Part shown: positions 28,057 through 56,702 of the stretch, piece by piece | Layout: each line of letters opens with the position of its first letter | Numbering within the stretch: the first letter of the stretch is position 1 | Origin: a virus | Reading direction: 5' to 3' (one strand) | Virus record (IMG/VR): IMGVR_UViG_3300042306_000227 | Coordinates: 1-64,000 of that record | DNA length: 64,000 bases | Notes under the pieces: model-generated | Database searches by the model: none | Told to the model about the DNA's origin: nothing | What the model saw: only the letters and a program-made list of their open reading frames with translations | Position numbers and translations under genes: made by a program

Positions 28057-31000
28057 ATGAATTTTGAACAAAATTTTAGTCCATTAGACCCCAACAGTGA
28101 AGAGTATCAATCAGTAGATAATTTTGGACAAGAGTTAGACCCTCTTGCGCCTAAAAAACCAAAAACAATACCAGGTACAAATGTTCCAATAGGGGGCACT
28201 GGTATACCTGTTACAAAGGTAGATAAGCCATTTACTCAAATTGAGAATTCTATTAAGTCTGTTAAGACAGCTAATACAGAATACCAAAACTTACTTGCCA
28301 AAAAAGGTGGTGCAAGCTCTGTTTATGGAGAAGCCCCTGGCGATGAAATAGAGAGAAATAAGCAATTTACATCTGCGTTAAAATCACAATCTGACGAGTT
28401 ATTAAAAAAATATTCTAATGATATTAATAAACCTATAGACCAGGTTATTTCTTCTGGTAAATGGGAGGAATATATAACTGAATCTGGAGGGTTTAATTAC
28501 GACAAAGCAAGAGGTTACTTTGACTATGTAGTAAAGCAAAATGGTGGTGGAACATACGTAAGAGACTTAATGATATCTAAGTTTCAAAATGCAGTAGTTG
28601 CCAAGAAAAATGAAAAAGATGTAAAGCCATTCTTAAAAGAAGAGATTGCTAAGACTGGATTAAATCTAGATAAAGATGGCAATGTAGACTTTGCAAGTAT
28701 TATAGGTACTGAAAACTTAAAAGCTGGCCAAGAGGCTAAATTAAAGTCTATTGCACCTGCTCAATTTAACAAATTACAGTTAATAGAAAGCGATTCTGAA
28801 AAGCAGGTTAATCAATTACTTAATGCATCAAAAGATGTGTTTAAGCAGGAAGAACTTAAGTTTAATACATTAAAACAGCAGGTTCAGGCTCAGTTAACAG
28901 CTGGTCAAATAACACAAGAAGAGGCACAGAATACAATTAATGATGCACTATCTGGTATTAATCAAATGTCAGAGTCATTAAATAATGATTTTCAGAAAGC
29001 TGTTAGAGATATCAGAGTAAAGACTTCTTCTAAGTATGCAAGAATATCTAAAGAGATTGGAGCTATTGGCTCTGGTATGTCATTAGATGATATTATATCT
29101 GGTTTACCAAAAGATAAGCAAAAAGAAGTAAGAGATAGAGTTGAAGCTGCTAAGGCGAAGGTAAATATTGCATATGAAAATGCTTACTCAAAATTATCTT
29201 CTACAAAAAATGAAGGCAAGAAAGCACAAGAATCTATGATAGGACTTGGTGGACTTGCTGGAAAATCATTCTTAAGTGGGTGGAATAATGGCTTAGCTTC
29301 ATTAGGAGGTTATCTTAACATGAACGGAATTGATAACAGTTTTGCAGATTGGTTAAGAGCTCATTCTACAACAGGAGAAGAATTAGCTCCAGCACAATAC
29401 GAGTGGAGTGGTAAAGAATGGTATAAAAGAGGTATCTCTTCTGCTATGCAATCAACAGGTATGAGTCTACCTACAATGGCACCTACATTAGCTATTACAG
29501 CAGCTGGAACAGCAGCTGGAGTACCTGCGGTAGGTCTTGCTGTTATAAATGGTGTATTAGGATATTTAGGAGAAAGAAACCAAAACTCATTTGAAGTATA
29601 CGATAAAGAGATTAAGAAAGGTAGTAATCCAAATGATGCTTTAATTAAAGCGGAAACATTTGAAAGAATGTCTGTTTCTGAATTGCCATTCCATTTATTA
29701 GGAGGTTTAGCTGACGTTAAATTATTCCAACTTGGAGCAAGTGCTACAAAGAGTGCAGGCAAGGGAGTTAAGTCTATTGTTACAGAATATGGGAAAAGCT
29801 TTGGAGGGGAATTATTAGAAGAGTATCCAACTGAGTTATTACAAAACTATAATCAAGCAAAACTTGATGGGTATAAAGGTAGCTTATTTGAATATGGAGC
29901 ATCTAACCCAGAATTATTTTTAGATACATTAGTATCTACATTAGGTCAAGGCAGTGTGTTTGCTGGTGCTGGTAAAGTATTTGGGGCATTCACAAGCGCA
30001 GCCCCAGAATCAAGAATTCAGTTTTATACTGACATGATTCAAAAGAATGGGATTGAATATGCTAAGACGGTTGCGAAGAAGTATTATGATTCAGGTATAT
30101 TAGATGGTGCAACTGCAACTTCTGTGTCAGCTGAAATTGATGATGCTTCTAAAATATATTCAGACTTATTAGAGTCTGGTTTAGATGACAATGCTGCTAA
30201 ATTGTATGTAGCAATGCATTATCAGTCTAAGAGCTTATCTTCAAAAGCGGATAATAAAAAAGAATCTGTAATGGGTTCTCTTGCTAAGTTACAGCTTGCT
30301 AATACACAATCTCAAATGAAGGAATTAGCTAATGGAACACTCCCATATGTTGTTATGGAGATACCAGGAGGCGAAAACTCTTCAAGAGTAATATCATTAC
30401 AAGACTTTAACACACTTACTCCTGCTCAAAAAACAAATGTAATACAAGCATCTAACTCAATCAGTGTAATAAATGATGAAGACGCTAACACGTCATTACA
30501 AGAGCAAAAGAAGCAGTTAGGCAATACACCTAATGCTCCTGTTGGTCTATTTACCAATAACATTAAAACAACTCAAGATGCCACTCAAGAAAGCACAAGG
30601 GAAGAGCAAATCAGCACTGAACAAGGCGGTATCAGCCAATATCAGGGAACTCAACCAATCCAAGAACAAGCGACCAATGAAACAAAAGATAGCAATCGCC
30701 CTATCAGCGGCACGAAGAAAGTAATAACGCTTCAGAATATAAATGAGATTGAACAGATTGAAGGCAATAATACTCAGAAAAAAGTATTAGGCGATGTAAA
30801 AAATGTTACGTCATCAATAGCTGGATTTGTTCAGCAAGATACAGGCAGCGAATTAAAGGTTAATATACACGACCAAAACTCATTTACACAGGCTGTATTA
30901 GAAGCTGGTGGAACACAACAAGATGCAAAGTCAAAAGGGTTCTATATGTCTTCAGATGGAAACATACATTTAAACATGGACAATGTTTCAGAGGACACAA

Positions 31001-34000
31001 TGTTACACGAAGGATTCCATCCTGTGTTAGACTATATAGAAAAAAATAGTCCAGACACAATGAATAGCCTTTTTGAGCAATTAAAGTCTATACCTCAAGC
31101 TCAAGATTTTGTTCAGAAAGCTGAGGCTGCTTACAATGAGAATGGTAGTATTACTGTTAAAAAAGAAGCAATTACAGACTTTATAGCTAACGTAGCTAAT
31201 GGTAACGTTAAGGTTGATGCTACTAATTTAGAGACATTAAAGAATTATATAATAGGGTTGTTAAATAAGTTAGGGTTAAATCTTAAGCAGAATAGAATTT
31301 TAAATTTAGAAACTGCAGAAGACTTAAAGAATCTAGCTACATTTATAACAGAAAAGTTTACCTCTGGAAGTGAAATAACACAATCAGAACTTGGAAAATT
31401 TGTAGAAACCAAACCTACTGCTGAAAATCCAATTGCAAAATCTGGACAACTTCAATTTAGTAAAACAATATATGGTGAGTCTGGTATAGAAAAATCTCCA
31501 GCACTGGATAGTGACGAGTTTGTTCAAGCTGTTCAAGATGGTAGAATATCTGTATCTAACCCATATCAATCTTTGATGGGTAAGTTTTTTGGGATTACAT
31601 TCCCAGATGATTTATTTACTGGAGAACTAAAAGTAAATGGAGAAACTGTAGGTTTTGGGTTCGGTGGAGTTTTTTATGTTGCAAAATTTGGAGCTAAAGG
31701 ATTAGCTTGGGCATCAGTTGGCAAGCAGTCAGCAAGCAACTTTACTATACAAGCTAATGCAAGCTTAAAAAAGAATAACGGAGAAGGTATTATTGTTTTA
31801 TCAAAAGGAGATGATATTAAGCATGCTACATCTCTTCAAGCAAAGGTTGCATTTATTAATACATTATTGAAGTACGCTGAAAACAATAATCAAGGAGAGT
31901 CTTTGGTTAAGTCTATAAGAAAAATATATAATATTGGTAACGCAAAGAGTCCTAGTAAAATTATTGAGTACTTTAATAATTACCTAGCTTCTGGAAGAAT
32001 GGAATCTGGTCAAACAATGTTTGATGCTAAGGGTTCATTTGACAACTTAATGACTTCTATAATAAAAGAAGCGCAGCCTGTTATTACAAAAATGTTTCAA
32101 GATATGGGGCTTGAAGGAGATACATATTTTGATAAAACTCAATTAAGAAAGGATAATAAAATAGCTACTACAAAGGGTTTAAAGTCTTTGTATGCAGACA
32201 TGCTTCAAGAAGACTTTTTAAAAGGAGCTCCTAAAGGTGGCATATATGCAGCTATTAAATTTAGTAGCGAGTTAGAATATGTAGTTGATAAATCACATCC
32301 TTCTTATCCATATGTAATAAAAACTAAAGATGGCTCTCCTGTTAAATTAGAAGTTTTTAGTAAAACATTTAATGCATATGGTAAAGATGTTGCAGTAAAA
32401 GGTGTTGAAAGAAATACACAAAATGCATTTGGAGTAGTAACAACAACAAAGCCTAATTTCCAAATTAATGAGGAAATGGAAGGCAATAAATCAGAGCATA
32501 TTTTATCTAATAAGTTAGATGCTTATGAAGCAATATCAAAAGGTAAATCTGCTCCACAATTCCAAAAAGATATAGTACCTACAGGTGGTGTCCCATCTGT
32601 GCCAGGAGAAACAGGAGTTGGAGAAGCAAATCAACCATCAGGATTGCCAGAAAAGAAAAAGTATTCTTGGGAGAAGGGTACATCTGGTAAGCCAGAGCCA
32701 GGAGAGACTATGATTAAGACATCTACTGGAAGATATGTCGCTATTGAGACTATGGCTGGTCAAATGATGGATAGAGATAAGGTTATTAATGAAATAAAGA
32801 AAGCAGAACCTTCATTCTTTTCAAAGCACATTAGAGATATAAGAACTAAATGGCGTGACAATCAATATAATGTATTAAAATCTCTTTCTGAAATAGGCAA
32901 AAGCGGGATGCTTGTAAAGCATTATTTACTTACAAGAAATAGCGCATCTGCAACTGCAACTGCAGCAGTAGAATCTGCTATTAAAGAAATATATGGGAAG
33001 ATATCAAAGAAGAAAACCTTTAATATCAATGGAGCTAAGGTCACAGAATATGTTTTGTTTAATCAAATGATTAATTATCAAAGGGTTATATCAATACAAG
33101 AACAAATGAACGATGCTTATAAGACTATGATAAGCTCTGAGCCTGGTTCACAAGAATATAACAAAGCAAAAAAGAAATTGCTTGATAACAATATGATTGA
33201 TGTGAATGGTGATTATGTAGGAGAAAGTTTAGATACTGAATTCGCAATGGGTAATGTCACTGCAACTCAATCAAAAGCTTTGCTTTATGAGATAAGAGAA
33301 TCAATAGGAGAAGAGTCTTTTGATAAGTTAATGAATGCTTCTGAGAAATATAGCAACCATTTTAATAAGATGATGAAAGAAAGATATGAGGCTGGTTTAA
33401 TATCAGAAGACACATACAAATATCTTTCAAAGTTCTACTATGCTCCAGGCAGATACGTTAGTGATGTTTTAATTGACCCTATACTATCTATTGCAAAAAC
33501 AACTCCAACATATCAAAGTACTTCTATATTGAAAATGAGGAGTCTTGCTGGAGGTACAGAAAGATTAAATCTAAATGATTACGAAGGATTATTAAGAGCT
33601 GTAACATATGCGTCTGAATATTCAATAGCAGAGAATAGGGCAACAAATAGATTCTATGACTTAATATCAGAAAATAAAACACAGTTCAATAGTAGTGGTA
33701 TTAGACTTGGTACAAAATTAGTTCCTATTGAAGCAGAAGGCCCAGTTAAGTTTGATATTATTGATGAAAAGGTAATAGCTATACAAGAAGGTAAAGCAAA
33801 GTCTGCATTAGAATTACCTAGTGGACAAAAGCAATTGCCTTATAAAGGTATTCAAAAGCCATCAGATATGCCAGTCGGTAAGTATATTCAACCAATTGAT
33901 ATTGTACTAGATGAAGATGGAAATAAGTTTAGAGTAGTATACGAAACTCCTAAAGTAGGTGAAGATATTATTAAAACATATTATAATGGTCAACAATATG

Positions 34001-36012
34001 ATATTATAGTTCCAGCTTGGTTTGCTGATGCATGGTATAACAGGAATATGGCTACAGGAGATACGTCTTCCTTAATAGCTAAAATAACTGGAGCAAATGT
34101 TTTAAGGCTAGTAGCTACTGGTATTAACCCTGTATTCGGTATTGCTCAAATTGTACCAGATACAATATCAGCATATGCATCCACACTAGAAGAAAGAAAA
34201 CTTCCTTTGCTTATAGACTACCCTAGGTTCTTTATAAAGACATTAGCTGCTTCAAGGGATATTATGAAAAAAACAGATGATTTTAAAGAAGCGACTAAAT
34301 ATGGAGCTACTACAAATTTCTACAACGGAGGTTCTGTTTCTTTTGAAAGAGGATTGATGGGTCTAGAGGATAAGTCTTTAGAGAAGGTTGTAGAAGAGTG
34401 GAATGTGCCTGTGTTAAAACAGTATGTTATGGGGTCTAAAAGAATCACAGAGACTACAGAACAAATGACAAAAGTTGCTATATATAAAGAGATAAGAGAC
34501 AGAAAAATAAAAGAATTTAAGCAGGAGAATAATAGAGAGCCAAACTCGCAAGAACTAGAAGACATAAAAATAGAGTCTGGGTCTATGGCAAGAGGTACTG
34601 CTGATTTCCATAGAAAGGGTTCTAGCGCATCTAATGTGAATAAGGTTATACCATACTTAAATGCAGCTATACAAATTAACAGAGCTGTATTAAGGTCTAT
34701 TAAAAAGAATCCAATGAAAGCTGTATACTACTCTATGGAGTATATGGGTCATGCTGCTGTATTTAGTTTAATGGCTATGGGAGCTGGTGATGATGATGAA
34801 TTAAAAGAAAAGAAAAGAAGGGCATACTTAGGTCTTAGTGAATTTGAGAGGGATAATAACTTTTTAATGTACTTTAATGAGTCAGAAGGAAAGTTTGTAG
34901 CTCAAAAACTACCTTCATTCTTAGTCCCATTTAATGCATTTTCAAGAAGGCTTACAGAAAGAATATACCTTGAGAAAAAAGAGATTACACCAAAAGACAT
35001 TCGTGAAATTGCGTCTAGTGTAGCAGATATGTTCCCTTTATTGCAAATATTAAATGTTGAAAAAACTTTATCTAGAAACCCAGCATATAGCTTTGCAGCA
35101 AAACTATTCTTCAATAGAGACCCTTATAGACAAGAAGCGGTAGCTAAATACGATGAGTCTACAAAAAACTACCTAGAAGGAGCTATGATAGGGAAAGAGC
35201 AATCTTCTGCATTTTCAAGAAAAATAGGTGAGTTAACAAAAAATGGAGTGCCATTATTCCCAGAAGGTATTTCTCCAAAAAGACTTGATGCGGCACTTGG
35301 CTCTATACCATTCCAATCTAACCCAATATCAGCATTCCCATTATTTGCGGCAGATGCAACAAGTATAACAATGGAAGAATTTGAAGAAAAGTACGGCAAG
35401 AATGCTGCTAGTATCATTCTGTCTGCAAGTGGAATCTCAAAAAGATACTTTAAGGGCGGAAGTAGAATAAATCAAAATTTAGCTGGATTATCACTTGAGA
35501 ATATAAAAGACAGAGGCGAAATGAAAAACAAGATAGCTGAAATGATTCTGCCAAAGTTTGAAGAATTTACAAAGAATATGACTAGAGAAGATGCATTTGT
35601 AAAGGCAACTGAAGATTTTATATCAAATGAGTTTGATAAGTTAACGGTTGAGCAAAAGATAATAGCTCAAGGATATATAACTGGCGACCTTAGAGGTAGA
35701 ATATTTAATGTTACAAAAGACAAGCAAGTATCTCAAATATTAAATATGGAAGACCCTAATGCTAAGATAGATGCTATATTGTACACAATGAAGAATGTTA
35801 GAACCACAGATAGCTCAAGAGATGCATTTATAAACGAGCTTGTTCAAAATGGGATAACAGCTAACGAGTCTTTTGGTAGAATGTTAGCAGTAAGAGGTGA
35901 ACAAGAACTTCCAAACCCAGAGACTGGTGTAATGGAGAAGAATAACAGGTATGAAAAAGAGGTAGGAGAGCTGTTGAAGAAACTGACAATAATCTTTGAA
36001 AAGTCTCAATAA
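28057..36012 (+). CDS. giant polyvalent ejection protein, 2651 aa, with a metallopeptidase-like motif
   Basis: The largest gene of the window. Residues about 1-440 are helical. A hydrophobic Ala/Gly-rich stretch near 465-520 may cross a membrane. 'LHEGFHPVL' gives HEGFH at 984-988, an HExxH zinc-protease motif, and the third ligand is not obvious. Residues about 1130-1500 form an unassigned mixed domain. Residues about 1590-2280, starting 'FFSKHIRDIRTKWRDNQYN', resemble the large polyvalent protein-associated domain LPD38, which ends here with 'INRAVLRSIKKNPM' and a hydrophobic helix. Polyvalent proteins of this type travel in the virion and enter the cell with the DNA. Inference: it opens the envelope or disarms early host functions. 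Confidence 0.7.
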   Translation: MNFEQNFSPLDPNSEEYQSVDNFGQELDPLAPKKPKTIPGTNVPIGGTGIPVTKVDKPFTQIENSIKSVKTANTEYQNLLAKKGGASSVYGEAPGDEIERNKQFTSALKSQSDELLKKYSNDINKPIDQVISSGKWEEYITESGGFNYDKARGYFDYVVKQNGGGTYVRDLMISKFQNAVVAKKNEKDVKPFLKEEIAKTGLNLDKDGNVDFASIIGTENLKAGQEAKLKSIAPAQFNKLQLIESDSEKQVNQLLNASKDVFKQEELKFNTLKQQVQAQLTAGQITQEEAQNTINDALSGINQMSESLNNDFQKAVRDIRVKTSSKYARISKEIGAIGSGMSLDDIISGLPKDKQKEVRDRVEAAKAKVNIAYENAYSKLSSTKNEGKKAQESMIGLGGLAGKSFLSGWNNGLASLGGYLNMNGIDNSFADWLRAHSTTGEELAPAQYEWSGKEWYKRGISSAMQSTGMSLPTMAPTLAITAAGTAAGVPAVGLAVINGVLGYLGERNQNSFEVYDKEIKKGSNPNDALIKAETFERMSVSELPFHLLGGLADVKLFQLGASATKSAGKGVKSIVTEYGKSFGGELLEEYPTELLQNYNQAKLDGYKGSLFEYGASNPELFLDTLVSTLGQGSVFAGAGKVFGAFTSAAPESRIQFYTDMIQKNGIEYAKTVAKKYYDSGILDGATATSVSAEIDDASKIYSDLLESGLDDNAAKLYVAMHYQSKSLSSKADNKKESVMGSLAKLQLANTQSQMKELANGTLPYVVMEIPGGENSSRVISLQDFNTLTPAQKTNVIQASNSISVINDEDANTSLQEQKKQLGNTPNAPVGLFTNNIKTTQDATQESTREEQISTEQGGISQYQGTQPIQEQATNETKDSNRPISGTKKVITLQNINEIEQIEGNNTQKKVLGDVKNVTSSIAGFVQQDTGSELKVNIHDQNSFTQAVLEAGGTQQDAKSKGFYMSSDGNIHLNMDNVSEDTMLHEGFHPVLDYIEKNSPDTMNSLFEQLKSIPQAQDFVQKAEAAYNENGSITVKKEAITDFIANVANGNVKVDATNLETLKNYIIGLLNKLGLNLKQNRILNLETAEDLKNLATFITEKFTSGSEITQSELGKFVETKPTAENPIAKSGQLQFSKTIYGESGIEKSPALDSDEFVQAVQDGRISVSNPYQSLMGKFFGITFPDDLFTGELKVNGETVGFGFGGVFYVAKFGAKGLAWASVGKQSASNFTIQANASLKKNNGEGIIVLSKGDDIKHATSLQAKVAFINTLLKYAENNNQGESLVKSIRKIYNIGNAKSPSKIIEYFNNYLASGRMESGQTMFDAKGSFDNLMTSIIKEAQPVITKMFQDMGLEGDTYFDKTQLRKDNKIATTKGLKSLYADMLQEDFLKGAPKGGIYAAIKFSSELEYVVDKSHPSYPYVIKTKDGSPVKLEVFSKTFNAYGKDVAVKGVERNTQNAFGVVTTTKPNFQINEEMEGNKSEHILSNKLDAYEAISKGKSAPQFQKDIVPTGGVPSVPGETGVGEANQPSGLPEKKKYSWEKGTSGKPEPGETMIKTSTGRYVAIETMAGQMMDRDKVINEIKKAEPSFFSKHIRDIRTKWRDNQYNVLKSLSEIGKSGMLVKHYLLTRNSASATATAAVESAIKEIYGKISKKKTFNINGAKVTEYVLFNQMINYQRVISIQEQMNDAYKTMISSEPGSQEYNKAKKKLLDNNMIDVNGDYVGESLDTEFAMGNVTATQSKALLYEIRESIGEESFDKLMNASEKYSNHFNKMMKERYEAGLISEDTYKYLSKFYYAPGRYVSDVLIDPILSIAKTTPTYQSTSILKMRSLAGGTERLNLNDYEGLLRAVTYASEYSIAENRATNRFYDLISENKTQFNSSGIRLGTKLVPIEAEGPVKFDIIDEKVIAIQEGKAKSALELPSGQKQLPYKGIQKPSDMPVGKYIQPIDIVLDEDGNKFRVVYETPKVGEDIIKTYYNGQQYDIIVPAWFADAWYNRNMATGDTSSLIAKITGANVLRLVATGINPVFGIAQIVPDTISAYASTLEERKLPLLIDYPRFFIKTLAASRDIMKKTDDFKEATKYGATTNFYNGGSVSFERGLMGLEDKSLEKVVEEWNVPVLKQYVMGSKRITETTEQMTKVAIYKEIRDRKIKEFKQENNREPNSQELEDIKIESGSMARGTADFHRKGSSASNVNKVIPYLNAAIQINRAVLRSIKKNPMKAVYYSMEYMGHAAVFSLMAMGAGDDDELKEKKRRAYLGLSEFERDNNFLMYFNESEGKFVAQKLPSFLVPFNAFSRRLTERIYLEKKEITPKDIREIASSVADMFPLLQILNVEKTLSRNPAYSFAAKLFFNRDPYRQEAVAKYDESTKNYLEGAMIGKEQSSAFSRKIGELTKNGVPLFPEGISPKRLDAALGSIPFQSNPISAFPLFAADATSITMEEFEEKYGKNAASIILSASGISKRYFKGGSRINQNLAGLSLENIKDRGEMKNKIAEMILPKFEEFTKNMTREDAFVKATEDFISNEFDKLTVEQKIIAQGYITGDLRGRIFNVTKDKQVSQILNMEDPNAKIDAILYTMKNVRTTDSSRDAFINELVQNGITANESFGRMLAVRGEQELPNPETGVMEKNNRYEKEVGELLKKLTIIFEKSQ

Positions 36013-45771: not shown

Positions 45772-48486
45772 ATGAGTTTAAAAGCAATAGATACTGGTTT
45801 TCTCAGGAATTTAGTTTCATACGATAATATAGGTAACATTTCGTTACCTGCTAGTTTGTCTATTTTTGTCAATAAAGAAGTAGCTACAAAAGAATACGTA
45901 GACGCTCAGAATAGTGGTCAGGTTCTACAATCTAGAACTTTGACTATTAATGGGGTTACTTACGACCTTTCAGCAAATAGAAGTTGGACTATAGATTCTA
46001 TGGTATATCCGTCAGCAGGTATCGCTTTATCAAGTGGTACTGGCTGGGGAGCTTCTATTACAAATAATTCAGCAAATTGGAATACTGCGTTTGGATGGGG
46101 TAATCATGCTTTAGCTGGATACCTTACATCATTTACAGAGACAGACCCCACAGTCCCATCTCATGTAAAGGCTATTACTACAACTAAGATAAGCGATTGG
46201 GATGCTGCATTTGGATGGGGGAACCATGCATCTGCAGGTTATGAAATTGCGTCTAACAAATCAAATAATGCTGCTTTAGGAAACTCTAGTACGTTATATC
46301 CAACGCAAGCAGCAGTAAAATCTTATGTTGATTCTGCTGTGACTGGTGGAGTAAACATACAAGGTGATTGGAATGCAAATACCAATACTCCTAATATATC
46401 AGGCACTACTACTACTGGATTTACATGGAGGGTTTCCGTAGCTGGTTCAACTAATTTAGGTGGAATTACTACTTGGAATGTTAATGACTTAGCTGTTAAA
46501 ACAGCAGCTGGTTGGATTAAAATTGATAATAGTTCATCTGTTATTTCTGTATATGGTAGACAAGGTGTTGTTGTAGCTAATGCTGGGGATTATAATACAT
46601 CTCAAGTTACCGAAGCTGTTGGTAGTTTATACTTTACTACAGCTAGAGCTAGAGCGTCATTTAGCGCAGGCACAAATGTATCAATAGATGCAAATGGTGT
46701 AATTAGCTCAGTAAATACAACTTATAATAATTTTACCAGAACGGTTGCAGGCTTAGTGCCAAACCCAGGAGGCTCTTCAACTACTCGTTATTTAAGAGAG
46801 GATGGTACATGGGTAATACCACCTGATACAATTGTAACATCATTAGCATGGACTAGCATTACTAGTAGACCAACTAAATTATCTGACTTTACAAATGACT
46901 TAGGAAACTATGGTTCATTTTTAACAGCATACACTGACACATTAGCTACTGTTACAAATAGAGGAAATTCTACAGCACAAAATATAGTTTTTAGTAATGG
47001 AAGGAAGGGGCTTGTAGGTGTTTATGATGCTGCACAGACTCAAGCAATATTTGCTATGGGTGCTGCTTATGTTTTAGCAGATGGAGGTGCTTCAAATAAT
47101 ATAGGAAATCTTTACGGACTAGCTTGGTCATATAATCCAGACTACGGAGGCGCAGGTAATAATCCGCAATCAAAAGCAGGGTTAAATCATCAGTTATTGT
47201 TGATGCAAGCAGGTGTTACTACCGCAGCAATAGGTTCTGGTATATGGACAAGTGGAAATATATCTGCAGCTAATTTTAGTGGTTCACATAGTGGTACTTC
47301 TTCAGGAACAAATACAGGAGACCAAGTAAATATTAGTGGTAATGCTGCGACAGCGACGTCAGCTACATCAGCTACAATATCAACTTTTTTGTCATCTCCT
47401 GATGGAGATAGATTAGCAGGCAGTAAATTACCTAATGGTACTGTAAGAGCAATTAGGTTTGATTTTGCAAATGCAAACTCTATTACAGGTGCAACAGGAA
47501 ATTATGCAGGTGTAATGACTTATTCTCCTTGGGATGGTACTGTAGCTTCTACTGGAGACTCTTCATATCAATTAGCATTTATTAATGAAACAGGTGTTAA
47601 CGCAAGTGGAGCCCCTGGCCTTAGATTTAGAAATGGTATTGACTCAACTTGGAATGGTTGGACATCAATAATAACATCTTCTAATATAGGTTCTTATACA
47701 GCAGGTGGTGTTGCTTGGGGTAATGTGTCTGGAAGACCAACGGCATTAAGTCAATTTACAAATGATTTAGGGAACTATGGAGGCTGGGTTGTTAGAAGTG
47801 GCGACAGCATGAGTGGTAGACTTACTATTAATAGTGGGGGGAATAATTTGCCATTGCATGTTCTTTCTGTAGAACCTTATATACAACTTCAGGCAACAGG
47901 AGAAACGAATTCTACATCTTTTAGAATGTATCCTACAGGTGGTTTTAATGCTTCAATAGGTAATTACGCTACAGGGGAATTGTGCCTTGTTGCCGCAAAC
48001 AGCGAGGCTGTCTTTATTAACAGCAATAGCATACGTGTAAATAAATATAGATTTAATGGGAATGGCACATTATCTGGTAATGGATTAGTTGAAATTGTTG
48101 ATATGGCTAATGTTGGAATGGCAACACAAGCAAATTCATATAGATGGTATAGTGCTAATGCTGCTAATATATTAATGTCATTAAATACATCAGGACATCT
48201 TACTGCTAACGCATTCTTTGAAGCATCAGATATTAGATACAAAAATGTAACCGAGACTAATCCAGATATTAGTGGGCTTGGTATTGATGTGATTAAATTT
48301 ACTAGACACGGAAGTGATATAGTAAGATATGGTTATTCTGCACAGCAAGTGCAATCAGTTATACCAGATGCTGTAGAAGGTAAAGATGTACTAACTGTAA
48401 ACTATATGGATGTTCATACTTTAAAGATTGCATCTTTAGAAAGAAGAGTTAAAGAATTAGAAGAAAGACTAAAAAGCACATTATAA
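45772..48486 (+). CDS. long tail fibre with C-terminal S74 intramolecular chaperone, 904 aa
   Basis: The S74 domain starts near residue 820 ('DIRYKNVTETNPDISGLGIDVIKFTRH', 'YGYSAQQVQSVIPDAV') and ends in a coiled coil. Contents in order: an N-terminal segment like the second fibre, a TINGVTYDLSANRSW motif, 'SGTGWGASITNNSANWNTAFGWGNHA', a 'FGWGNHASAGY' repeat, a 'AVKSYVDSAV' linker, a 'GDWNANTNTPNISG' module, then unique sequence. It is thus a mosaic of modules found in its neighbours. Confidence 0.75.
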   Translation: MSLKAIDTGFLRNLVSYDNIGNISLPASLSIFVNKEVATKEYVDAQNSGQVLQSRTLTINGVTYDLSANRSWTIDSMVYPSAGIALSSGTGWGASITNNSANWNTAFGWGNHALAGYLTSFTETDPTVPSHVKAITTTKISDWDAAFGWGNHASAGYEIASNKSNNAALGNSSTLYPTQAAVKSYVDSAVTGGVNIQGDWNANTNTPNISGTTTTGFTWRVSVAGSTNLGGITTWNVNDLAVKTAAGWIKIDNSSSVISVYGRQGVVVANAGDYNTSQVTEAVGSLYFTTARARASFSAGTNVSIDANGVISSVNTTYNNFTRTVAGLVPNPGGSSTTRYLREDGTWVIPPDTIVTSLAWTSITSRPTKLSDFTNDLGNYGSFLTAYTDTLATVTNRGNSTAQNIVFSNGRKGLVGVYDAAQTQAIFAMGAAYVLADGGASNNIGNLYGLAWSYNPDYGGAGNNPQSKAGLNHQLLLMQAGVTTAAIGSGIWTSGNISAANFSGSHSGTSSGTNTGDQVNISGNAATATSATSATISTFLSSPDGDRLAGSKLPNGTVRAIRFDFANANSITGATGNYAGVMTYSPWDGTVASTGDSSYQLAFINETGVNASGAPGLRFRNGIDSTWNGWTSIITSSNIGSYTAGGVAWGNVSGRPTALSQFTNDLGNYGGWVVRSGDSMSGRLTINSGGNNLPLHVLSVEPYIQLQATGETNSTSFRMYPTGGFNASIGNYATGELCLVAANSEAVFINSNSIRVNKYRFNGNGTLSGNGLVEIVDMANVGMATQANSYRWYSANAANILMSLNTSGHLTANAFFEASDIRYKNVTETNPDISGLGIDVIKFTRHGSDIVRYGYSAQQVQSVIPDAVEGKDVLTVNYMDVHTLKIASLERRVKELEERLKSTL

Positions 48487-50070: not shown

Positions 50071-50099
50071 TACGACTGACATACATATGGTTATTTCCG

Positions 50100-50125
50100 A
50101 GCCCTGTTTCTACAGGGCTTTTTTA
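50100..50125 (+). terminator. terminator, identical to the one at 18816
   Basis: AGCCCTG and CAGGGCT flank TTTCTA and are followed by six T. The hairpin is the same, base for base, as 18816-18842. Confidence 0.85.
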
Positions 50126-50131
50126 TTTTAG

Positions 50132-50139
50132 TACCTTTG
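50132..50139 (+). promoter_or_regulatory. TACCTTTG box 4 nt before the first exported-protein ATG
   Basis: TAnnTTTG match ending at 50139, with the ATG at 50144. It starts the exported-protein cassette and may give a leaderless transcript. Confidence 0.6.
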
Positions 50140-50143
50140 CATT

Positions 50144-50608
50144 ATGAAGTACTTATTATATTTATTGTTAATATTGAGCACATCTAGTATGGCTCAAGAT
50201 GTGACTATATCTGTCCAAAACAGCATTAAATTAGGTGATTTGGCAGGTAATAGAAAAATAGAGTTTGGTGTAGCTAATATCATTGAAGAGATAATCCAAG
50301 AGAAAGGATACTCAATTAACCCAAAATCTAAAAATATTATCTTTGCCGAGTTGATTTATATGGATGTAGTGAAGACTAAAAGCAATCTATCAGTATTCCA
50401 TAAAGACAATACAGATGTCGTGATAAGAATCAAGGGGTATATTTCCAAAGACGGAAGTAAAAGCAAGCCAATCTTGGTAGAAGGTAGCGCATCCGAGGTG
50501 TCAACATCAACAATACTTGTCGGAACAGACGGCAAGTTCAATCAACAAAATTTAACAACTGCAATAAAAAAGGCTTGCTATGAACTTATTGAGAAAATTA
50601 ATCCTTAG
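50144..50608 (+). CDS. secreted protein with a CsgG-like fold pattern, 154 aa
   Basis: A signal peptide is visible: 'MKYLLYLLLILSTSSMAQ', cut after Ala-Gln in Bacteroidota style. The mature part has 'FGVANIIEEIIQEKGYSI', then 'VVIRIKGYISKDGSKSKP' and a closing 'KFNQQNLTTAIKKACYELIEKI'. The 53667 product has 'LGVANISMEYLENLNRF' and 'KFNQSTIGTATKKALDIA' in the same places, so the two are probably paralogues with the alpha/beta layout of CsgG. CsgG is the curli secretion channel of the outer membrane. This one is short, so it may be a partial or accessory form. First gene of the cassette. Confidence 0.55.
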   Translation: MKYLLYLLLILSTSSMAQDVTISVQNSIKLGDLAGNRKIEFGVANIIEEIIQEKGYSINPKSKNIIFAELIYMDVVKTKSNLSVFHKDNTDVVIRIKGYISKDGSKSKPILVEGSASEVSTSTILVGTDGKFNQQNLTTAIKKACYELIEKINP

Positions 50609-52226
50609 TCTTGTCACTATTTTTGGAATATTTGTGACAAATGCGCAGATTCCTACAATATATTTAGAAAAGTCTAATATAACTAAGAACATAAAGGACA
50701 CGTCTATCTTAAAGGGAGACACTGTTGATATGGTGGTTATGTATAAGGAGGAACTATCTTCTACCAGAACGCTATACTTTGACTTTCAGTATAACTATAG
50801 AACATTTACTATATTAGGTGTAACTAGTTTTAGTGGAGATAGTAGTGCTATGCCTGCAAATGCTACAATGAGTATTCAGAATAGCTTCCATCCAGGATTT
50901 ACCTATCAAAGAACAGCTCAAAATACAACAACAAATGGTTCACAGAACTATAACTATGCTAACTATACGTATTCACCAAGCAGCAATAATGCTATCCAAA
51001 GAATCTATACTACAGTTACTTCAAATAGTAATCTACGTAATGGGAAATATATCAGGATACGTATTAAGGTAAACGCAACTACAGCTGGAACAGCTTATGA
51101 TAGTTTGTATATGAACTTTGTATCTGGCTGGAAATCAGATGGTACTTATATTGATACGTATATGCCTCTACCTAAAAGCACATTCATAACACTAGACGCT
51201 AATGCTAATACTTTGGTTACTGGTAATATATATAAAAGTCCTTCTGTTCAGACTAATATCAAGTTTACCGACTCCGCTTCAGGAATATCTACTTTATTAT
51301 ATCCTGATGTAAATGGTGTTTTTAAAGCTTCTACGGAGCTTGCATCAAATAGAACATACAAAGTATCAGTTGGTATAGATAGTATCGCTAGTGTAGCTAA
51401 AAATGCTATTACGGTATCAGATGCTACAGCCGCCTTAAATGAGTTTGGTTCTGTTAACCTAAATGGCACTTTTAATAAGACTAACCTAAAGACAGGTGCT
51501 GCTTGGCTAGCTGCTGATGCTAACTATAATGGTTCTTTTGATGCTGCCGACCCATACTTGATATTGGCTCATGTGGCCAATACGCTGACAATGGTTCCTA
51601 ATATATACACATATAAAAGAGCTGATTTTAGTAAAGATACTTTACCAGTTCAGAATTTTATCTATTTCCGTACTACTACTGCCAATCAAGCATTAGATTT
51701 AAACTATCTAATTGCAGGTGATATTAATAGAAGCCATAGCTCACAGGTTGTAGCCACAGATGGAACAATCCAATCATTTTCATTGGTTAATACTCCAATA
51801 GTAAAAAAAGCTGTTTTAGTAAGCCTAGAAAATGCTGTGATTGAGTCTGATAATATATCTATACCTATGAATATCAATTCAGACGGATTAAGCTTATGCG
51901 GATTGCAGTTTGAGTTTGCATATGATGCAACTAAAATTCAGTTGCAAGAAATAAAGGCCAATACAAACGCATCTTGGCTAAACTTCTATACAAACGAGAA
52001 TGGGTATGTTAAGTTTGGTGGTATAGATAAGACTTTAAAAGAGCCTATATCTGGAACAACGATTCCATTTACAATTAAATTCAAGGCATTAACGCCTGGT
52101 GTTGATATAAATACTAATGTATGGGTAACAGATAATATGGATGCGTCTGATAACAGAGGTAATCAAGTTGGTATTAAGTTAAACACTGCACAGATTCGTT
52201 TAATCGGTATAAATAATTTTAAATAA
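50580..52226 (+). CDS. secreted dockerin- and cohesin-like protein, 548 aa
   Basis: The ATG overlaps the previous gene by 29 nt. A signal peptide occupies residues 1-22 (ending 'FVTNAQ'). The body is beta-rich. At 313-324 the loop D-A-N-Y-N-G-S-F-D-A-A-D fits a dockerin calcium loop (D, N, N, hydrophobic, D), and 'AGDINRSHSS' downstream looks like a second, weaker copy. The C-terminal ~110 residues ('LSLCGLQFEFAYDATKIQLQEIKAN', 'IPFTIKFKAL') resemble a cohesin-type sandwich. Known for the families: dockerins bind cohesins in surface complexes. Having both in a phage protein is unexpected. Inference: a protein displayed or exported by the infected cell. Confidence 0.55.
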   Translation: MNLLRKLILSLVTIFGIFVTNAQIPTIYLEKSNITKNIKDTSILKGDTVDMVVMYKEELSSTRTLYFDFQYNYRTFTILGVTSFSGDSSAMPANATMSIQNSFHPGFTYQRTAQNTTTNGSQNYNYANYTYSPSSNNAIQRIYTTVTSNSNLRNGKYIRIRIKVNATTAGTAYDSLYMNFVSGWKSDGTYIDTYMPLPKSTFITLDANANTLVTGNIYKSPSVQTNIKFTDSASGISTLLYPDVNGVFKASTELASNRTYKVSVGIDSIASVAKNAITVSDATAALNEFGSVNLNGTFNKTNLKTGAAWLAADANYNGSFDAADPYLILAHVANTLTMVPNIYTYKRADFSKDTLPVQNFIYFRTTTANQALDLNYLIAGDINRSHSSQVVATDGTIQSFSLVNTPIVKKAVLVSLENAVIESDNISIPMNINSDGLSLCGLQFEFAYDATKIQLQEIKANTNASWLNFYTNENGYVKFGGIDKTLKEPISGTTIPFTIKFKALTPGVDINTNVWVTDNMDASDNRGNQVGIKLNTAQIRLIGINNFK

Positions 52227-52579
52227 TGAAAAGAATCAGTATCATCACATGCTTAGTATTGCTTGTAGTATCATGCAAAAAAATACAATATTATCCAGAG
52301 CAACAAGCTAAAACACCTGAAAAACAGGGGTATGTTAATGTGTCTCCTGTACCTACATTAGGTCAAATCACAATGAGTTTTAACCTACAACCATCTATCA
52401 AGTATAATGTTACAATCAAGGATATGAGCGGTAAAGTTTACAAATCTTATGGGGTAAGCTCAATAGATGGCTTATTGGTAAAGCAGGATAACCTAACTGG
52501 ATTAGCAAGTGGAACATATGACTTAATTTTGATGAATATAAATGGCTCAGAAACTAGAACCCCAATAATTATAAAATAA
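52226..52579 (+). CDS. lipoprotein resembling a type IX secretion C-terminal sorting domain, 117 aa
   Basis: The lipobox 'LVVSC' sets Cys17 as the lipidated residue. The remaining 80 residues read as a T9SS type A sorting domain: a 'VSPVPTLGQITMSF' opening where the family has 'PNPxxGxxxI', 'YNVTIKDMSGKVYKSYG', then 'DNLTGLASGTYDLILMN' and a closing 'TPIIIK'. In that secretion system this domain directs cargo to the outer surface and is then removed. Here it stands almost alone behind a lipid anchor, which is unusual. Its ATG overlaps the stop of the preceding gene (TAATG). Confidence 0.6.
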   Translation: MKRISIITCLVLLVVSCKKIQYYPEQQAKTPEKQGYVNVSPVPTLGQITMSFNLQPSIKYNVTIKDMSGKVYKSYGVSSIDGLLVKQDNLTGLASGTYDLILMNINGSETRTPIIIK

Positions 52580-52585
52580 AATACA

Positions 52586-52885
52586 ATGGCAGAAGAACAA
52601 GAAAGCACAGGTAGTTCTATGAAAAATGTTATCATAGGATTCATTAGCACAATCACTCTAGGAGTAGGTGGTTGGATTACAACAAAATTAACAGGAGGAG
52701 ATGAGAAAGAAACCCCAACACAAACAGCGGCTCCAGTCATTAATATCAATCAAACGCAACAACAAGCTGCAGGAGGTGGTAAGACTGTTATCATTAAAGA
52801 AAAGGCGTCAGAACCTGCAAAGCCAGCTGCAACTCCTAAGAAAAAAGAGGGCGATGATTTTAAGGAAGAGGCTCCTAAATGGTAA
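52586..52885 (+). CDS. single-span membrane protein with Lys/Ala/Pro tail, 99 aa
   Basis: One helix 'NVIIGFISTITLGVGGWIT' (about 14-32), then a Gln/Thr-rich and Lys/Pro/Ala-rich tail. The N-terminus is short and acidic. A tail of this kind reaches across the periplasm or lines a pore. The gene could be a holin- or spanin-type element, but the order in the operon suggests an envelope protein. No family is firmly recognised. Confidence 0.5.
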   Translation: MAEEQESTGSSMKNVIIGFISTITLGVGGWITTKLTGGDEKETPTQTAAPVININQTQQQAAGGGKTVIIKEKASEPAKPAATPKKKEGDDFKEEAPKW

Positions 52886-52888
52886 TAT

Positions 52889-53032
52889 ATGGCAAAGAAG
52901 ACGTCAAAGCCTAAAGCGAAACGAAGTATTCGCTCAGGTGTTAAAAAGAGTAAATTAGTAAAACAAAATCAAGAAGTAATATATAACGTATGGACAACGC
53001 TAAACAGCCAACAGGTTTTAAAGAACTTTTAA
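52889..53032 (+). CDS. small basic protein, 47 aa
   Basis: ATG 52889 lies 3 nt after the previous stop and the frame ends at 53032, overlapping the next gene by 43 nt in another frame. The Lys/Arg-rich N-terminus 'MAKKTSKPKAKRSIRSGVKK' is followed by a neutral end. It would be a short cationic peptide. The overlap makes it uncertain whether it is expressed. Confidence 0.35.
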   Translation: MAKKTSKPKAKRSIRSGVKKSKLVKQNQEVIYNVWTTLNSQQVLKNF

Positions 53033-53553
53033 ACGCAATGATGGAACGCAGATGGTATATTACCGCTGCTGTTCTTGGTGGGTTTATTTTAATTATCGCA
53101 GGGATATTTGTAGCAGTATCTAACAATGCTTCTATGGCAGGGGAATGGAAAGAGTTATTAATGTTATTATTGGGTGCCTTTATTGGTAGCTATGGTAAGA
53201 TTATAGACTACTGGTTCTCTGATACAGACAAGGATAAAATGTTAGTACAGAAGATGGATGAAGAAGATGGTGTTTCTATGTCTCACACAAATGACATGAA
53301 AGAAACTAACAAGCCATTTGGCCCTACCATTCCTGATGCATTTGTTCAAGGAGCTGCTGCAGCTAGAGATTTAGCTGTTACAGAAAACAGACAAAACTTT
53401 GAACTTAAAAGAGACCAACAAGAACACGAACAAGAGATGGAGAAGTTAGAGTTTGAATACCAAGCACACAGACAATGTGAGCATGAGTGGGGAGATTCTG
53501 ACGGAGACGGAGAACTTGAGTGTCAAAAGTGTGGATTATTGAAAGATAAATAA
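52990..53553 (+). CDS. membrane protein with two helices and a C-terminal zinc ribbon, 187 aa
   Basis: Two hydrophobic segments (about 23-44 and 55-71, 'WKELLMLLLGAFIGSYGKII') are followed by a long charged helix and a zinc ribbon 'CEHEWGDSDGDGELECQKCG' (about 163-182). The 'DSDGDGE' between the cysteines also resembles an acidic calcium loop. I know no standard holin with such a tail, and it may be an unrecognised phage membrane protein. It lies before a pair of hairpins that ends this sub-operon. Confidence 0.5.
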   Translation: MDNAKQPTGFKELLNAMMERRWYITAAVLGGFILIIAGIFVAVSNNASMAGEWKELLMLLLGAFIGSYGKIIDYWFSDTDKDKMLVQKMDEEDGVSMSHTNDMKETNKPFGPTIPDAFVQGAAAARDLAVTENRQNFELKRDQQEHEQEMEKLEFEYQAHRQCEHEWGDSDGDGELECQKCGLLKDK

Positions 53554-53560
53554 AAACATA

Positions 53561-53584
53561 AGTCAGAAACCGCAAAATCTGACT
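53561..53584 (+). repeat. hairpin AGTCAGA/TCTGACT
   Basis: A 7 bp perfect stem with a 10 nt loop between the membrane protein and the following terminator. There is no T-tract. It may be an RNA stability element. Confidence 0.5.
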
Positions 53585-53601
53585 CATATATCAATCAATC
53601 T

Positions 53602-53635
53602 TGAGCCGTTTATCAATCGTATTCGGCTCATTTTT
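53602..53635 (+). terminator. terminator before the CsgG-like gene
   Basis: TGAGCCG and CGGCTCA form a 7 bp stem with a long loop, followed by five T. It would end the first part of the cassette, so the CsgG-like gene needs its own promoter or read-through. Confidence 0.7.
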
Positions 53636-53666
53636 GAGCGATAAGTATAATTTAAATGAGCGATAT

Positions 53667-54389
53667 ATGAAAATTATAAAATCTTGTTGTACCATAATTA
53701 TAATCCTTTGCTTTATTAATGGTCAAGCTCAGGTAGCGACAACTAAGACAGAGAACTATAAAGCTAGTTTTGAGACTAAGATTGACATCAGTCAGTACAT
53801 GGACTATGATGGGCCGACTATACCAATTCAAATACTTAAATGCGGAATAAATGACGAAATGTATGAAATGTATCCAGAACTTAAGGAAAAGAGGGTTGGT
53901 TTGGGCGTGGCAAACATCTCTATGGAGTACCTGGAAAACCTCAATCGCTTCACTTTCACGGAGGACAAGACTGAGATTAAGAATAGAATGGTTAAACAAT
54001 TCCAGGCCTCTCAAGCAGGAATTTCTCAAGATAAGTTGGATGGAAGAGGAAAGATTAGACTAGCACATTACTTTGTTGAGATTGAGTGCTATGATTATTC
54101 TGTTTCAGAAGATGAAGAGATTAGGGTAAAAGATGGCATTAAGGAGACTGTTGTCACAAGAATAGGATTACAGGTAAGATTTACGGATGCGCAGACAGGT
54201 GAAATCATAGCTGCATCTGGATTGGGAGAAGCTAAAACTACACGAGAAGCAAGCCTATTGAATGACGAGAATCTTAGTGAAGTTAAATTTAATCAGTCAA
54301 CGATAGGAACTGCAACAAAGAAAGCACTAGATATTGCGTGTGCTCGCATCCTATCAAGAATGATTAAAAAGAATGTATTCCCTAAATAA
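53667..54389 (+). CDS. CsgG-like outer-membrane secretion protein, 240 aa
   Basis: The start at ATG 53667 gives a clean signal peptide (MKIIKSCCTIIIILCFINGQAQ), and a longer reading would begin inside the terminator. The mature part shows 'RVGLGVANISMEYLENLNRFTFTED', the entry strand and helix of CsgG, then 'TRIGLQVRFTDAQTGEIIAASGLGEAKT' (the pore-side strands) and a closing 'FNQSTIGTATKKALDIA'. In bacteria CsgG forms a ring-shaped channel for curli subunits and is lipidated. Here the cleavage site looks like signal peptidase I and no lipobox is seen, which is odd. Pelagiphages are reported to carry curli-type csgG, so phages can hold this family. Confidence 0.65.
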   Translation: MKIIKSCCTIIIILCFINGQAQVATTKTENYKASFETKIDISQYMDYDGPTIPIQILKCGINDEMYEMYPELKEKRVGLGVANISMEYLENLNRFTFTEDKTEIKNRMVKQFQASQAGISQDKLDGRGKIRLAHYFVEIECYDYSVSEDEEIRVKDGIKETVVTRIGLQVRFTDAQTGEIIAASGLGEAKTTREASLLNDENLSEVKFNQSTIGTATKKALDIACARILSRMIKKNVFPK

Positions 54390-55611
54390 AACACTTTTTC
54401 GTACGATATTCTGTACACTTTTGACACTTTCATTGACGAGTGCAAAAGCGCAGATACTTACAAGTACATTTATAGACCCATGTAGCAAGAAGGTCACAGT
54501 CTTTGTAGTGCCAATTCAAGGTACTACAATTGTGTTTATGGGTAAGTCTAAATACATAACAGCTCAGGATGTAAAGTCAGGTGCTTTAATGACTTGGGTA
54601 AATCAAGTATACGCAGAGTATTCAGCGCCATGCCCTGTTACACAACTTACTCAACAATTAACACAGCAAACGGTAACAAATTCAGTTTCAGCAGCAGTAA
54701 GTTCAGCAGCATCAAGTGCCGCTGCGAGTGCTGCTAGCAGTGTAAGTGTTCCAACTCCTGCTCCTGCTCCTGCGCCATCTTCTGCACCTTCTAGCCAACC
54801 AACTTCCTCTCAGAGTGATGGTAGCTCTAGCTCTAGCTCGTCTCAGAATGATGGTAGTTCTAGCGAAAGCAGTTCTGAGTCCTCTGAAAGTAAATCTGAG
54901 AGTAAATCCGAGGATAAAAAAGAAGAAAAGAAAGAAGAGAAGAAAGAGGAAAAGAAAAAGTCTTCCGCAAAGGCAGGACAAACCCCATTGATTTTTTCGT
55001 CTGATTTGAGTGCGGTTCAGCAGTTTCAAGGTGACTTTAATTTAATGGCAAATTTAGGCGTTTCTAGAGCATCTATGGCAGGAGACGTGTCTTACGGCTC
55101 TACATTGACAATCTTCTCAAATTTAAGACAATTTGCCCTATCTACAAGGTATTCTAAGATGGATATTCAGAATGGGACTTTATGTGGCGTAGGGACAACT
55201 TCTTACACAATGGCATATAATGATGGAGGCATCATACATATACTAGGTAAATCATATGTAATGTCCCATAAGTCATACATTTATGGCTATGCCTTGACTA
55301 TTATTAATACATCTATCCCATTTGAGGCTGTAAAACAACAATTCTGGACTTCTTCTATAGTGTTATTTGGCATGAAGCCATACGTTTACAGCAAAAGATT
55401 GACTATAACACCAGAGGTTTTTTTAATGTCTAACCCACTGAGTTATACAAGTAAATCAAAGGATTTGACATCTATGAGTCAATTAAGCTACATATTAGGC
55501 TCATCATTTGACATAGCATTGTCTAAGAGATTTAGACTTGCAACTAATATTAAATACATGGGGCCGCTTCATACAATTGGATTGCAGTTAGGAACAAAGT
55601 TTAACCTATAG
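54373..55611 (+). CDS. secreted outer-membrane-barrel-like protein with low-complexity insert, 412 aa
   Basis: The ATG overlaps the end of the CsgG-like gene by 17 nt. A signal peptide ends 'SAKAQ'. Residues about 28-90 are a compact Cys-containing domain ('FIDPCSKKVTVFVVPIQGTTIVF', 'YAEYSAPCP'). Residues about 95-200 are low complexity: first Ala/Ser, then Pro/Ser, Ser/Glu, and Lys/Glu repeats 'EKKEEKKEEKK'. Residues about 210-412 are alternating strands ending 'GLQLGTKFNL', the kind of end outer-membrane barrels have. It resembles an anchor with a long exposed or periplasmic linker. Cotranslation with CsgG-like suggests that the two act together. Confidence 0.55.
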   Translation: MYSLNKTLFRTIFCTLLTLSLTSAKAQILTSTFIDPCSKKVTVFVVPIQGTTIVFMGKSKYITAQDVKSGALMTWVNQVYAEYSAPCPVTQLTQQLTQQTVTNSVSAAVSSAASSAAASAASSVSVPTPAPAPAPSSAPSSQPTSSQSDGSSSSSSSQNDGSSSESSSESSESKSESKSEDKKEEKKEEKKEEKKKSSAKAGQTPLIFSSDLSAVQQFQGDFNLMANLGVSRASMAGDVSYGSTLTIFSNLRQFALSTRYSKMDIQNGTLCGVGTTSYTMAYNDGGIIHILGKSYVMSHKSYIYGYALTIINTSIPFEAVKQQFWTSSIVLFGMKPYVYSKRLTITPEVFLMSNPLSYTSKSKDLTSMSQLSYILGSSFDIALSKRFRLATNIKYMGPLHTIGLQLGTKFNL

Positions 55612-56456: not shown

Positions 56457-56702
56457 ATGAAAGATTTTTTACTTAGAATGTTCAGCGATAAGTCTGACAT
56501 AAATCAAAAGGCTGTGTTAGGATTTGTATCGTTTCTGTTAATGGCTATATATGCCCTAACAGATGTGGTTACAGGAGCAATAGGAATTACGTTTGTTATT
56601 GAGCCTATAGTATTTAACGGATTGATGTACACAGCTTTGACTATGTGTGGCATCACAGGTGTAGAGGCTGTATTTGGTAACAAGAACATAAAAGATAAAT
56701 AA
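56457..56702 (+). CDS. holin candidate, 81 aa
   Basis: Two hydrophobic helices (about 18-41 and 47-72) with polar ends and a basic C-terminus, directly before the endolysin gene and sharing a base with its ATG (TAATG). Small size, helix hairpin and position are the usual marks of a holin. The sequence itself is not a recognised holin family. Confidence 0.65.
   Translation: MKDFLLRMFSDKSDINQKAVLGFVSFLLMAIYALTDVVTGAIGITFVIEPIVFNGLMYTALTMCGITGVEAVFGNKNIKDK

Follow-up and report, generated by a model that had tools for sequence, protein, structure and literature searches.

Introduction

Clusters of curli genes have been published for pelagiphages (PMC7029224, PMC9599517) and for the methylophage Melnitz (PMC9004378). 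As presented in the available parts of these papers, they provide aquatic phages with a CsgG-fold exported protein and secreted partners, comprise recognisable CsgG, CsgF and, by one study, curlin repeats, and have been proposed to serve aggregation or sibling capture. Adhesion genes described as curli biosynthesis genes (csgA/G/F), for which aggregation is again proposed, appear in the accessible portion of a report on a marine T4-like Bacteroidetes virus (PMC7198788). A second group of systems concerns cargo of the type IX secretion system (T9SS), whose type A sorting domains are present, according to the parts available, on proteins of Cryophage (PMC7468147), which also has a PA14 protein, and on proteins encoded near the BACON genes of crAss-like phages (PMC6949934). 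Here we analyse a cassette of seven consecutive genes on the plus strand, p1, coh, por, tm99, tm187, csg and b412 (positions 50144-55611), of a 64,000-nucleotide stretch of viral DNA, hereafter the window, taken from a virus record of 73,267 bases (IMGVR_UViG_3300042306_000227).

The cassette shares with the pelagiphage and Melnitz clusters the CsgG-fold exported protein and its secreted partners, but differs from what the available parts of those papers describe in having a divergent pair of CsgG-fold paralogues, a putative barrel, cohesin and dockerin-like modules, and a T9SS sorting domain. With the T4-like virus it has adhesion genes and the host phylum in common, being set apart from it by the published description only. 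The T9SS type A sorting domain relates it to Cryophage and to the crAss-like phages, for which neither a CsgG-fold pair nor a cohesin or barrel cassette is described in the portions available; there, the words cohesin, curli and CsgG never occur in PMC7468147, nor does cohesin in PMC6949934. Phage curli and phage T9SS cargo are both known, the combination seen in the cassette was not found in print, and among the literature matches listed none to the point reports a cohesin-dockerin-like system in viruses.

We consider it close to an even chance that the cassette is a mobile module with which phages remodel the surface of the flavobacterial cells they infect, combining an outer-membrane platform with sugar-binding adhesin subunits, for aggregation or exclusion. 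A surface adhesin is favoured because relatives carry lectin, PA14 and ConA-like domains.

Linkage of the cassette genes in related phages

A preliminary description of this DNA had proposed a linked cassette of exported proteins between the fibre and lysis genes, and both its coordinates and its gene order hold. IMG/VR was scanned with the csg protein of the window, of an uncultured Bacteroidetes metagenome-assembled genome (MAG) and of phage immuto, yielding 462, 246 and 218 overlapping relatives, the best 80 of each being used, and a scan with coh added 7 further loci. The 249 loci encoding csg (163 distinct csg DNAs, several contigs being duplicated) included 143 with 7.5 kb on both sides, reduced to 47 once csg at least 90% identical had been removed. 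The 455 open reading frames (ORFs) matched by the p1 and csg profiles were assigned to csg when they had a BLAST match to it and to p1 otherwise. Loci were picked mainly by csg similarity, so that adhesin-bearing phages devoid of csg would escape, and the family profiles were iterated on the same loci, making some drift possible.

Same-strand counts within 7.5 kb are 47/47 loci for each of csg, tm99 and b412, 46 for p1 and for coh, 30 for tm187 and 14 for por; coh-family regions reach 47/47 within 9 kb, and p1 is absent from the counted stretch in locus L052 only. By the same procedure, the families of the flanking lysis block are found in 5/47 (sp200), 13/47 (hol81) and 28/47 loci (lys, 22 on the same strand). 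The cassette is thus a real conserved unit. The expectation that related phages would keep both the set and its order is borne out for linkage and, for order, in part: one group of loci begins with p1, the other has it close to the end, and tm187 shifts or is missing. As to whether the genes might prove unlinked in relatives, or their products devoid of the expected folds, the outcome came down in favour of the cassette.

Mean pairwise identities across the 47 loci are uneven, csg being the most conserved member (65%), followed by tm99 (51%), with 34.5% for p1, 30.5% for the b412 C-terminus, 34.6% for the cohesin module and 36.2% for the dockerin-only proteins. Because of this unevenness, csg and tm99 are taken as the fixed core, part of the supposed platform varying as fast as the adhesin.

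In the window the cassette precedes the lysis genes, and a lysis role for CsgG is proposed for phage Melnitz in the available part of PMC9004378. Together with the endolysin family counted above, these points speak for an outer-membrane disruption or lysis aid acting with the adjacent lysis genes. Such a function appears improbable, since endolysin linkage is loose when compared with that of the core, lysis has no use for cohesin and lectin parts, and the immuto cassette lies outside the virion genes, in a region of replication, nucleotide-metabolism and tRNA genes where its neighbours include ribonucleotide reductase and endonuclease genes. A role in phage exit, also raised in the preliminary description, found no specific support. 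A relative of the 81-residue holin-like gene of the window (56457-56702), whose family is the one near csg in 13/47 loci, sits between tm187 and csg, ~320-370 bases before csg, in L030, L025, L043 and others.

csg and p1 as paralogous proteins of a predicted CsgG fold

Two members had been noticed as CsgG-like, a claim that stands for the fold of the predicted structures of csg and p1 and fails, for csg, at the level of a CsgG family match. The models are of medium confidence (predicted local distance difference test, pLDDT, 77.4 for csg and 76.5 for p1; predicted template modelling score, pTM, 0.68 for both). That of csg has a predicted CsgG core fold: the first 21 Foldseek rows are all CsgG (best 9.0e-8), and VIA-align places CsgG at Z 11.9, with a root-mean-square deviation (rmsd) of 3.5 Å over 158 residues, the best non-CsgG row having Z 10.5. 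In a viral structure library, csg has four matches at E<=0.001, the best one (9.5e-8, TM-score 0.41) being a CsgG from an uncultured phage and the others unnamed. The p1 model matches, from Z 12.8 down to 10.4, Cj1090c (12.8), LptE (12.1), CsgG (11.7), PelC, FlgT and decameric TraT (10.4, 3.8 Å over 123), the last not being its top fold match; LptE, CsgG, PelC and TraT are also among its Foldseek matches. The predicted fold of p1 and csg is shared with the outer-membrane accessory proteins TraT, PelC and LptE, from which the window proteins differ in having no lipobox and, in the case of csg, no family match.

Profile comparison identifies p1 and csg as paralogues (hhalign probability 96.5%, E 7.5e-10, 119 columns with broad alignments); with shallow alignments the match is weak (E 0.0014, 31 columns). 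Against the bacterial CsgG profile, csg aligns in register over 154 columns (E 0.0039, probability 8.6%) and p1 over 65 (E 0.003-0.004, low probability), with no match for tm187 as control. PF03783, the CsgG family, does not match the csg of the window or 28 relatives at E<=1, and at E<=10 it finds nothing in the whole 73 kb record, the same scan being positive in 6/14 control genomes, 4 of them above the cut-off. No informative match was obtained for csg in Pfam, PHROGs or NCBIfam, nor for the cassette proteins in PHROGs, and csg and p1 profiles searched by sequence against solved structures gave chance-level matches only. As judged from these family searches, the cassette is not a known curli system.

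The lipobox varies among relatives. In the window csg it is absent, the signal ending ..QAQ|VATT with a Gln at the signal end invariant in 28/28, and a crude lipobox rule is positive in 11/47 csg relatives, ~10 of them convincing by eye. A plausible csg lipobox is seen in L134, L137, L138, L147, L148, L156, L164, L165, L245 and others, a plain signal peptide being present in the rest. Membrane anchoring of csg seems to have been gained or lost within the family.

Considering that (i) the predicted fold of csg is that of CsgG, (ii) its profile match to bacterial CsgG is weak but in register, (iii) a lipobox, as in CsgG, is present in 10 or 11/47 relatives, and (iv) curli genes are present in pelagiphages according to the available parts of PMC7029224 and PMC9599517, csg might be a divergent CsgG forming a type VIII-like secretion pore, with coh exported through it in unfolded or fibrous form. 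We regard this as quite unlikely, and csg as a CsgG-type pore as doubtful. Apart from the missing PF03783 match and the missing lipobox of the window csg and most relatives, the stretch in the place of transmembrane hairpin 1 is shorter and more charged in csg (mean 28 residues, 9 charged; 46/47 csg) than in bacterial CsgG (33-35 residues, 3-6 charged; 12/15 delimited by motif search), and hairpin 2 is not visible in the csg monomer model. Moreover, none of the seven cassette proteins has a Pfam match to CsgE, CsgF or curlin at E<=1, a search that remote forms could escape. The secretion pore of the preliminary description is thereby weaker than suggested, although some relatives do have a lipobox.

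The fold of p1 bears in turn on superinfection exclusion, by which p1 and csg would build a TraT-like outer-membrane ring blocking adsorption or DNA entry, the adhesin parts covering receptors. Surface modification that excludes rivals is a common phage strategy, 4/32 p1 relatives match TraT (PF05818) at E<=1, with a best value of 1.4e-4, and decameric TraT is matched by the p1 model. However, the Z of TraT lies below those of Cj1090c, LptE and CsgG and so marks a shared fold; the window p1 has neither a PF05818 match nor a lipobox; and lectin-type subunits stay unexplained unless they mask receptors. Exclusion in this form is unlikely.

Cohesin, dockerin-like and sorting modules

Of the dockerin/cohesin resemblance first noticed, the cohesin part stands, the coh protein having a predicted cohesin domain of 31.2 bits against a Pfam cut-off of 24.1; the dockerin matches inspected, found in relatives, fall below theirs. 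The window coh aligns along its full length with the coh-family profile, its dockerin-like region being assigned by homology to relatives only. Among 29 diverse coh-family proteins (<50% identical), Pfam matches at E<=1 are distributed as Cohesin 13, Por_Secre_tail 7, Dockerin_1 7 (best E-value 3.9e-4), Lectin_C 7, PA14 3 and Laminin_G_3 3. In the relatives inspected singly, lectin-type domains lie in proteins with the dockerin-like region, mostly those lacking cohesin; a 764-residue protein of L030 has a cohesin as well. The arrangement recalls the cellulosome in its cohesin above the Pfam cut-off and its dockerin-like partners, a sugar-binding module replacing the cargo in some relatives. 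Unlike in the cellulosome, a protein has one or two stretches of cohesin, no Pfam match is to a catalytic domain, the dockerins are sub-threshold and anchoring is of T9SS type.

The sorting-like member proposed earlier is recovered in por, whose putative T9SS type A C-terminal sorting domain (TIGR04183/PF18962) passes narrowly in NCBIfam (TIGR04183, 23.6 bits, cut-off 23) and fails in Pfam (21.8 bits, cut-off 27). Cys17 of the por lipobox is invariant in 16/16. Fused sorting domains of relatives exceed the Pfam cut-off where scanned singly.

These modules appear split or fused in different ways. Dockerin-like and cohesin regions are found with the iterated coh-family profile in 47/47 loci; the cohesin protein terminates in a sorting domain in 34/47, according to a profile of confirmed sorting domains, and a separate por-family lipoprotein takes the place of the fused domain in 13/47, the window included. 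L179, among the 34 fused loci, has an extra 66-residue por-like match. A second protein with a dockerin-like region and no cohesin, in some cases with lectin domains, is encoded in 33/34 fused loci versus 0/13 por loci. Three arrangements are seen: N-terminal domain, dockerin-like region, cohesin and C-terminal sorting domain in one chain; the first two separate from a cohesin fused to the sorting domain, as in immuto; and the first three in one chain with a separate lipoprotein, as in the window.

Export signals and the remaining members

The preliminary description had counted signal peptides in at least four members, and five exported proteins are read from the sequence, the remaining two products having membrane segments. 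The signals of p1, coh, csg and b412 all end in ..AQ, and por has its lipobox; hydrophobic segments are detected in tm99 and tm187 by a 19-residue scan that misses the shorter signals of p1 and b412. A crude export rule, which responds to transmembrane helices too, is positive in 6/6 cassette genes of at least 100 residues, tm187 included, versus 3/44 of the window's remaining ORFs of that size, among them the gene at 55852. Across relatives it is positive in 43/46 p1, 87/91 coh, 47/47 csg, 51/52 b412 and 19/20 por proteins, and in 0/28 endolysins.

These signals also bear on virion decoration, in which exported proteins would join the particle and bind carbohydrate. Carbohydrate-binding domains near phage tail genes are known, as with the BACON repeats of crAss-like phages in the available part of PMC6949934. 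This possibility is very improbable, given export signals in nearly all members, with the reservation just made on the crude rule, and the position of the immuto cassette outside the virion genes.

The C-terminus of b412 shows alternating strands and a final residue that is L, F or I in 43/47, consistent in sequence with a putative outer-membrane barrel, as its barrel-like ending had suggested. Pfam matches of b412 and tm99 (Tim54, DDHD, DUF2076 and similar) and an NCBIfam GltJ match on b412 were set aside as low-complexity or chance. The tm99 protein combines a single membrane segment with a polar tail, whose terminal Trp is invariant in 29/29. In tm187, a strongly hydrophobic segment is accompanied by a further apolar stretch, likewise conserved, and by an end rich in Cys and His. 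Alignment of tm187 and its relatives (alignment A4) reveals a highly conserved membrane-proximal segment, IGSYGKIIDYWFSDTDKDKMLVQK in the window, and a C-terminal CxH...CxxC zinc-ribbon-like end, unusual in a small phage membrane protein.

Carriers and distribution

Carriers include podovirus-like, myovirus and very large contigs, reaching 373,485 bases (L132) among the 47 loci and 434,509 in another csg contig that ends near csg (L105), as well as the isolate Flavobacterium phage immuto, whose name presumably denotes a myovirus. Immuto (L171, 10527-16409, MW353176.1) has the whole core set, its genes being labelled lectin C-type, cohesin domain-containing and hypothetical. The presence of the cassette in phages so unlike one another as podovirus-like ones, immuto and the very large contigs indicates that it moves between phages as a module. 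The abstract of PMC7077304 treats phages of Flavobacterium sp. LMO8, and the name immuto was not found in the parts of that paper examined.

In 50,697 phage records, csg and p1 were found in four immuto records only; coh and b412 had no relative in the phage collection by tblastn, and csg had none in plasmids. When one genome of each species (84,980 in all) was scanned for a peptide pattern, two MAG contigs were confirmed, one from Flavobacterium and one from an uncultured Bacteroidetes bin. The csg profile matched 3/395 genomes of the phylum at E<=0.01, strongly in the Flavobacterium MAG and marginally in the other two (0.0046 over 48 residues; 0.0095), and the p1 profile 1/198, the same Flavobacterium MAG. 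PF03783 was found in 35/118 genomes of that group, and CsgG is therefore detectable there. The cassette genes thus appear largely virus-bound.

Gene layout and genome context

The features of the cassette are collected in Table 1. Reading frames are tightly packed, with p1/coh and csg/b412 overlapping and coh/por and por/tm99 abutting; the gaps are of 104 bases between tm99 and tm187 and 113 between tm187 and csg.

Table 1. Positions in the window of the cassette genes and of the elements 5' of them.
Feature	Position	Strand	Description
Intrinsic-terminator-like hairpin with T run	50099..50120	+	Directly 5' of the cassette; weak alone, 6 such sites in the region vs 4.6 expected by shuffling
TACCTTTG	50132..50139	+	Match to the TAnnTTTG motif, 12 nt 5' of the p1 ATG; identical spacing before 55852
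p1	50144..50608	+	Exported 154-residue protein; predicted CsgG/LptE/PelC/TraT fold; csg paralogue by profile comparison
coh	50580..52226	+	Exported, 548 residues; N-terminal domain, dockerin-like region (~residues 240-385), predicted cohesin (424-525)
por	52226..52579	+	117-residue lipoprotein; putative T9SS type A sorting domain at 39-117
tm99	52586..52885	+	Short N-terminal membrane segment; polar Pro/Lys-rich tail; proposed inner-membrane tether
tm187	52990..53553	+	Protein with membrane segment and, at the C-terminus, a Cys/His end resembling a zinc ribbon; optional, in 30/47 loci
csg	53667..54389	+	Exported protein of predicted CsgG fold; listed ORF starts at 53601
b412	54373..55611	+	Exported; two conserved Cys in N-terminal domain; long Ala/Ser- then Lys/Glu-rich linker; C-terminal putative outer-membrane barrel

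The hairpin and the TAnnTTTG motif, which we take to be the Bacteroidota -7 motif, together suggest a transcription start at the cassette, neither of them being beyond chance alone. The motif totals 50 on the plus strand of the window versus 37 (standard deviation 7) expected, and precedes 6/46 first genes and 32/279 internal genes in relatives, being well spaced in the window but not conserved. At several positions of that strand (e.g., 9660, 42087, 50132, 55840) it lies 12 bases 5' of a start codon, as if leaders were very short.

The 5' neighbour of the cassette is a long fibre-like gene (45772-48486), and the 3' neighbour a lysis-type block whose endolysin is backed by a PHROG match (4.3e-72). 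Terminase and portal of the window are recognised by PHROGs. The portal is ~26% identical to those of flavobacterial phages in 87 records (68 Flavobacterium, 15 Cellulophaga, 2 Tenacibaculum, 1 Maribacter and 1 unclassified), the best matches being elemo phages, whose names we assume to denote podoviruses. Elsewhere in the window, a single ORF of 2651 codons (28057-36012) takes up ~1/9 of the podovirus-like 73 kb record, and a possible amidotransferase-like gene on the minus strand (2155-3162) matches the PHROG family L-glutamine-D-fructose-6-phosphate aminotransferase (2.6e-6).

Proposed role of the cassette

For the surface-remodelling module favoured above, we tentatively propose a cellulosome-like display of adhesins, in which p1-csg rings, the b412 barrel and the tm99 tether would carry cohesin scaffolds provided with a T9SS signal, and exchangeable dockerin-lectins would capture neighbouring cells or repel rival phages. 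In this scheme, rings of p1 and csg, periplasmic or associated with the outer membrane, would encircle the b412 barrel or sit beneath it, resembling PelC or possibly making a pore, and tm99 would tie this platform to the inner membrane. The cohesin protein would be put on the surface by the host T9SS via its own sorting domain or, in the window phage, be handed to the lipoprotein por. Dockerin-bearing subunits, some of them with lectin domains, would then plug into the cohesins and give the displayed adhesin, a part that the dockerin-like region of coh itself may play in the window phage. The benefit, the least certain step, might be the clumping of cells near burst or the masking of receptors against other phages.

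Several observations weigh against such a display. Regarding the platform, nearly all Foldseek rows of csg against CsgG have TM-scores under 0.5, at an rmsd of 9-18 Å; b412 has no barrel family match in Pfam; and p1 and the b412 C-terminus vary like adhesin parts, so that the split into a fixed machine and a variable adhesin is not clean. Regarding the adhesin, the window coh has no Dockerin_1 or lectin match of its own in Pfam, the Dockerin_1 matches inspected in the coh family reach at best 21.0 bits versus a cut-off of 22.9, and in the 47 loci both the dockerin-like region and the cohesin region were called with the iterated family profile and not with Pfam. Regarding export, Por_Secre_tail of Pfam matches 6/16 por proteins at E<=1, and the sorting-domain profile is positive in 2/13 por-type loci (the window and L005), the other 11 being assigned by the iterated por-family profile alone. 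In addition, por is predicted to be a lipoprotein, unlike ordinary T9SS cargo, and its lipobox argues for another route or role. Finally, the two arrangements of the sorting domain track csg clades, so that the 34 and 13 loci are not independent and reflect few events.

Phage curli have raised the question of why a lytic phage builds on the surface of a doomed cell. The cassette here presented would answer it a second time and by another construction, in phages that infect a different bacterial phylum and at 47 loci that differ by at least 10% in their best-conserved protein. Sibling capture and exclusion are testable in this case, the carrier immuto being cultured on Flavobacterium sp. LMO8 and some relatives carrying recognisable sugar-binding domains. 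If the proposed display is true, it would represent a cohesin-dockerin-like system in viruses.

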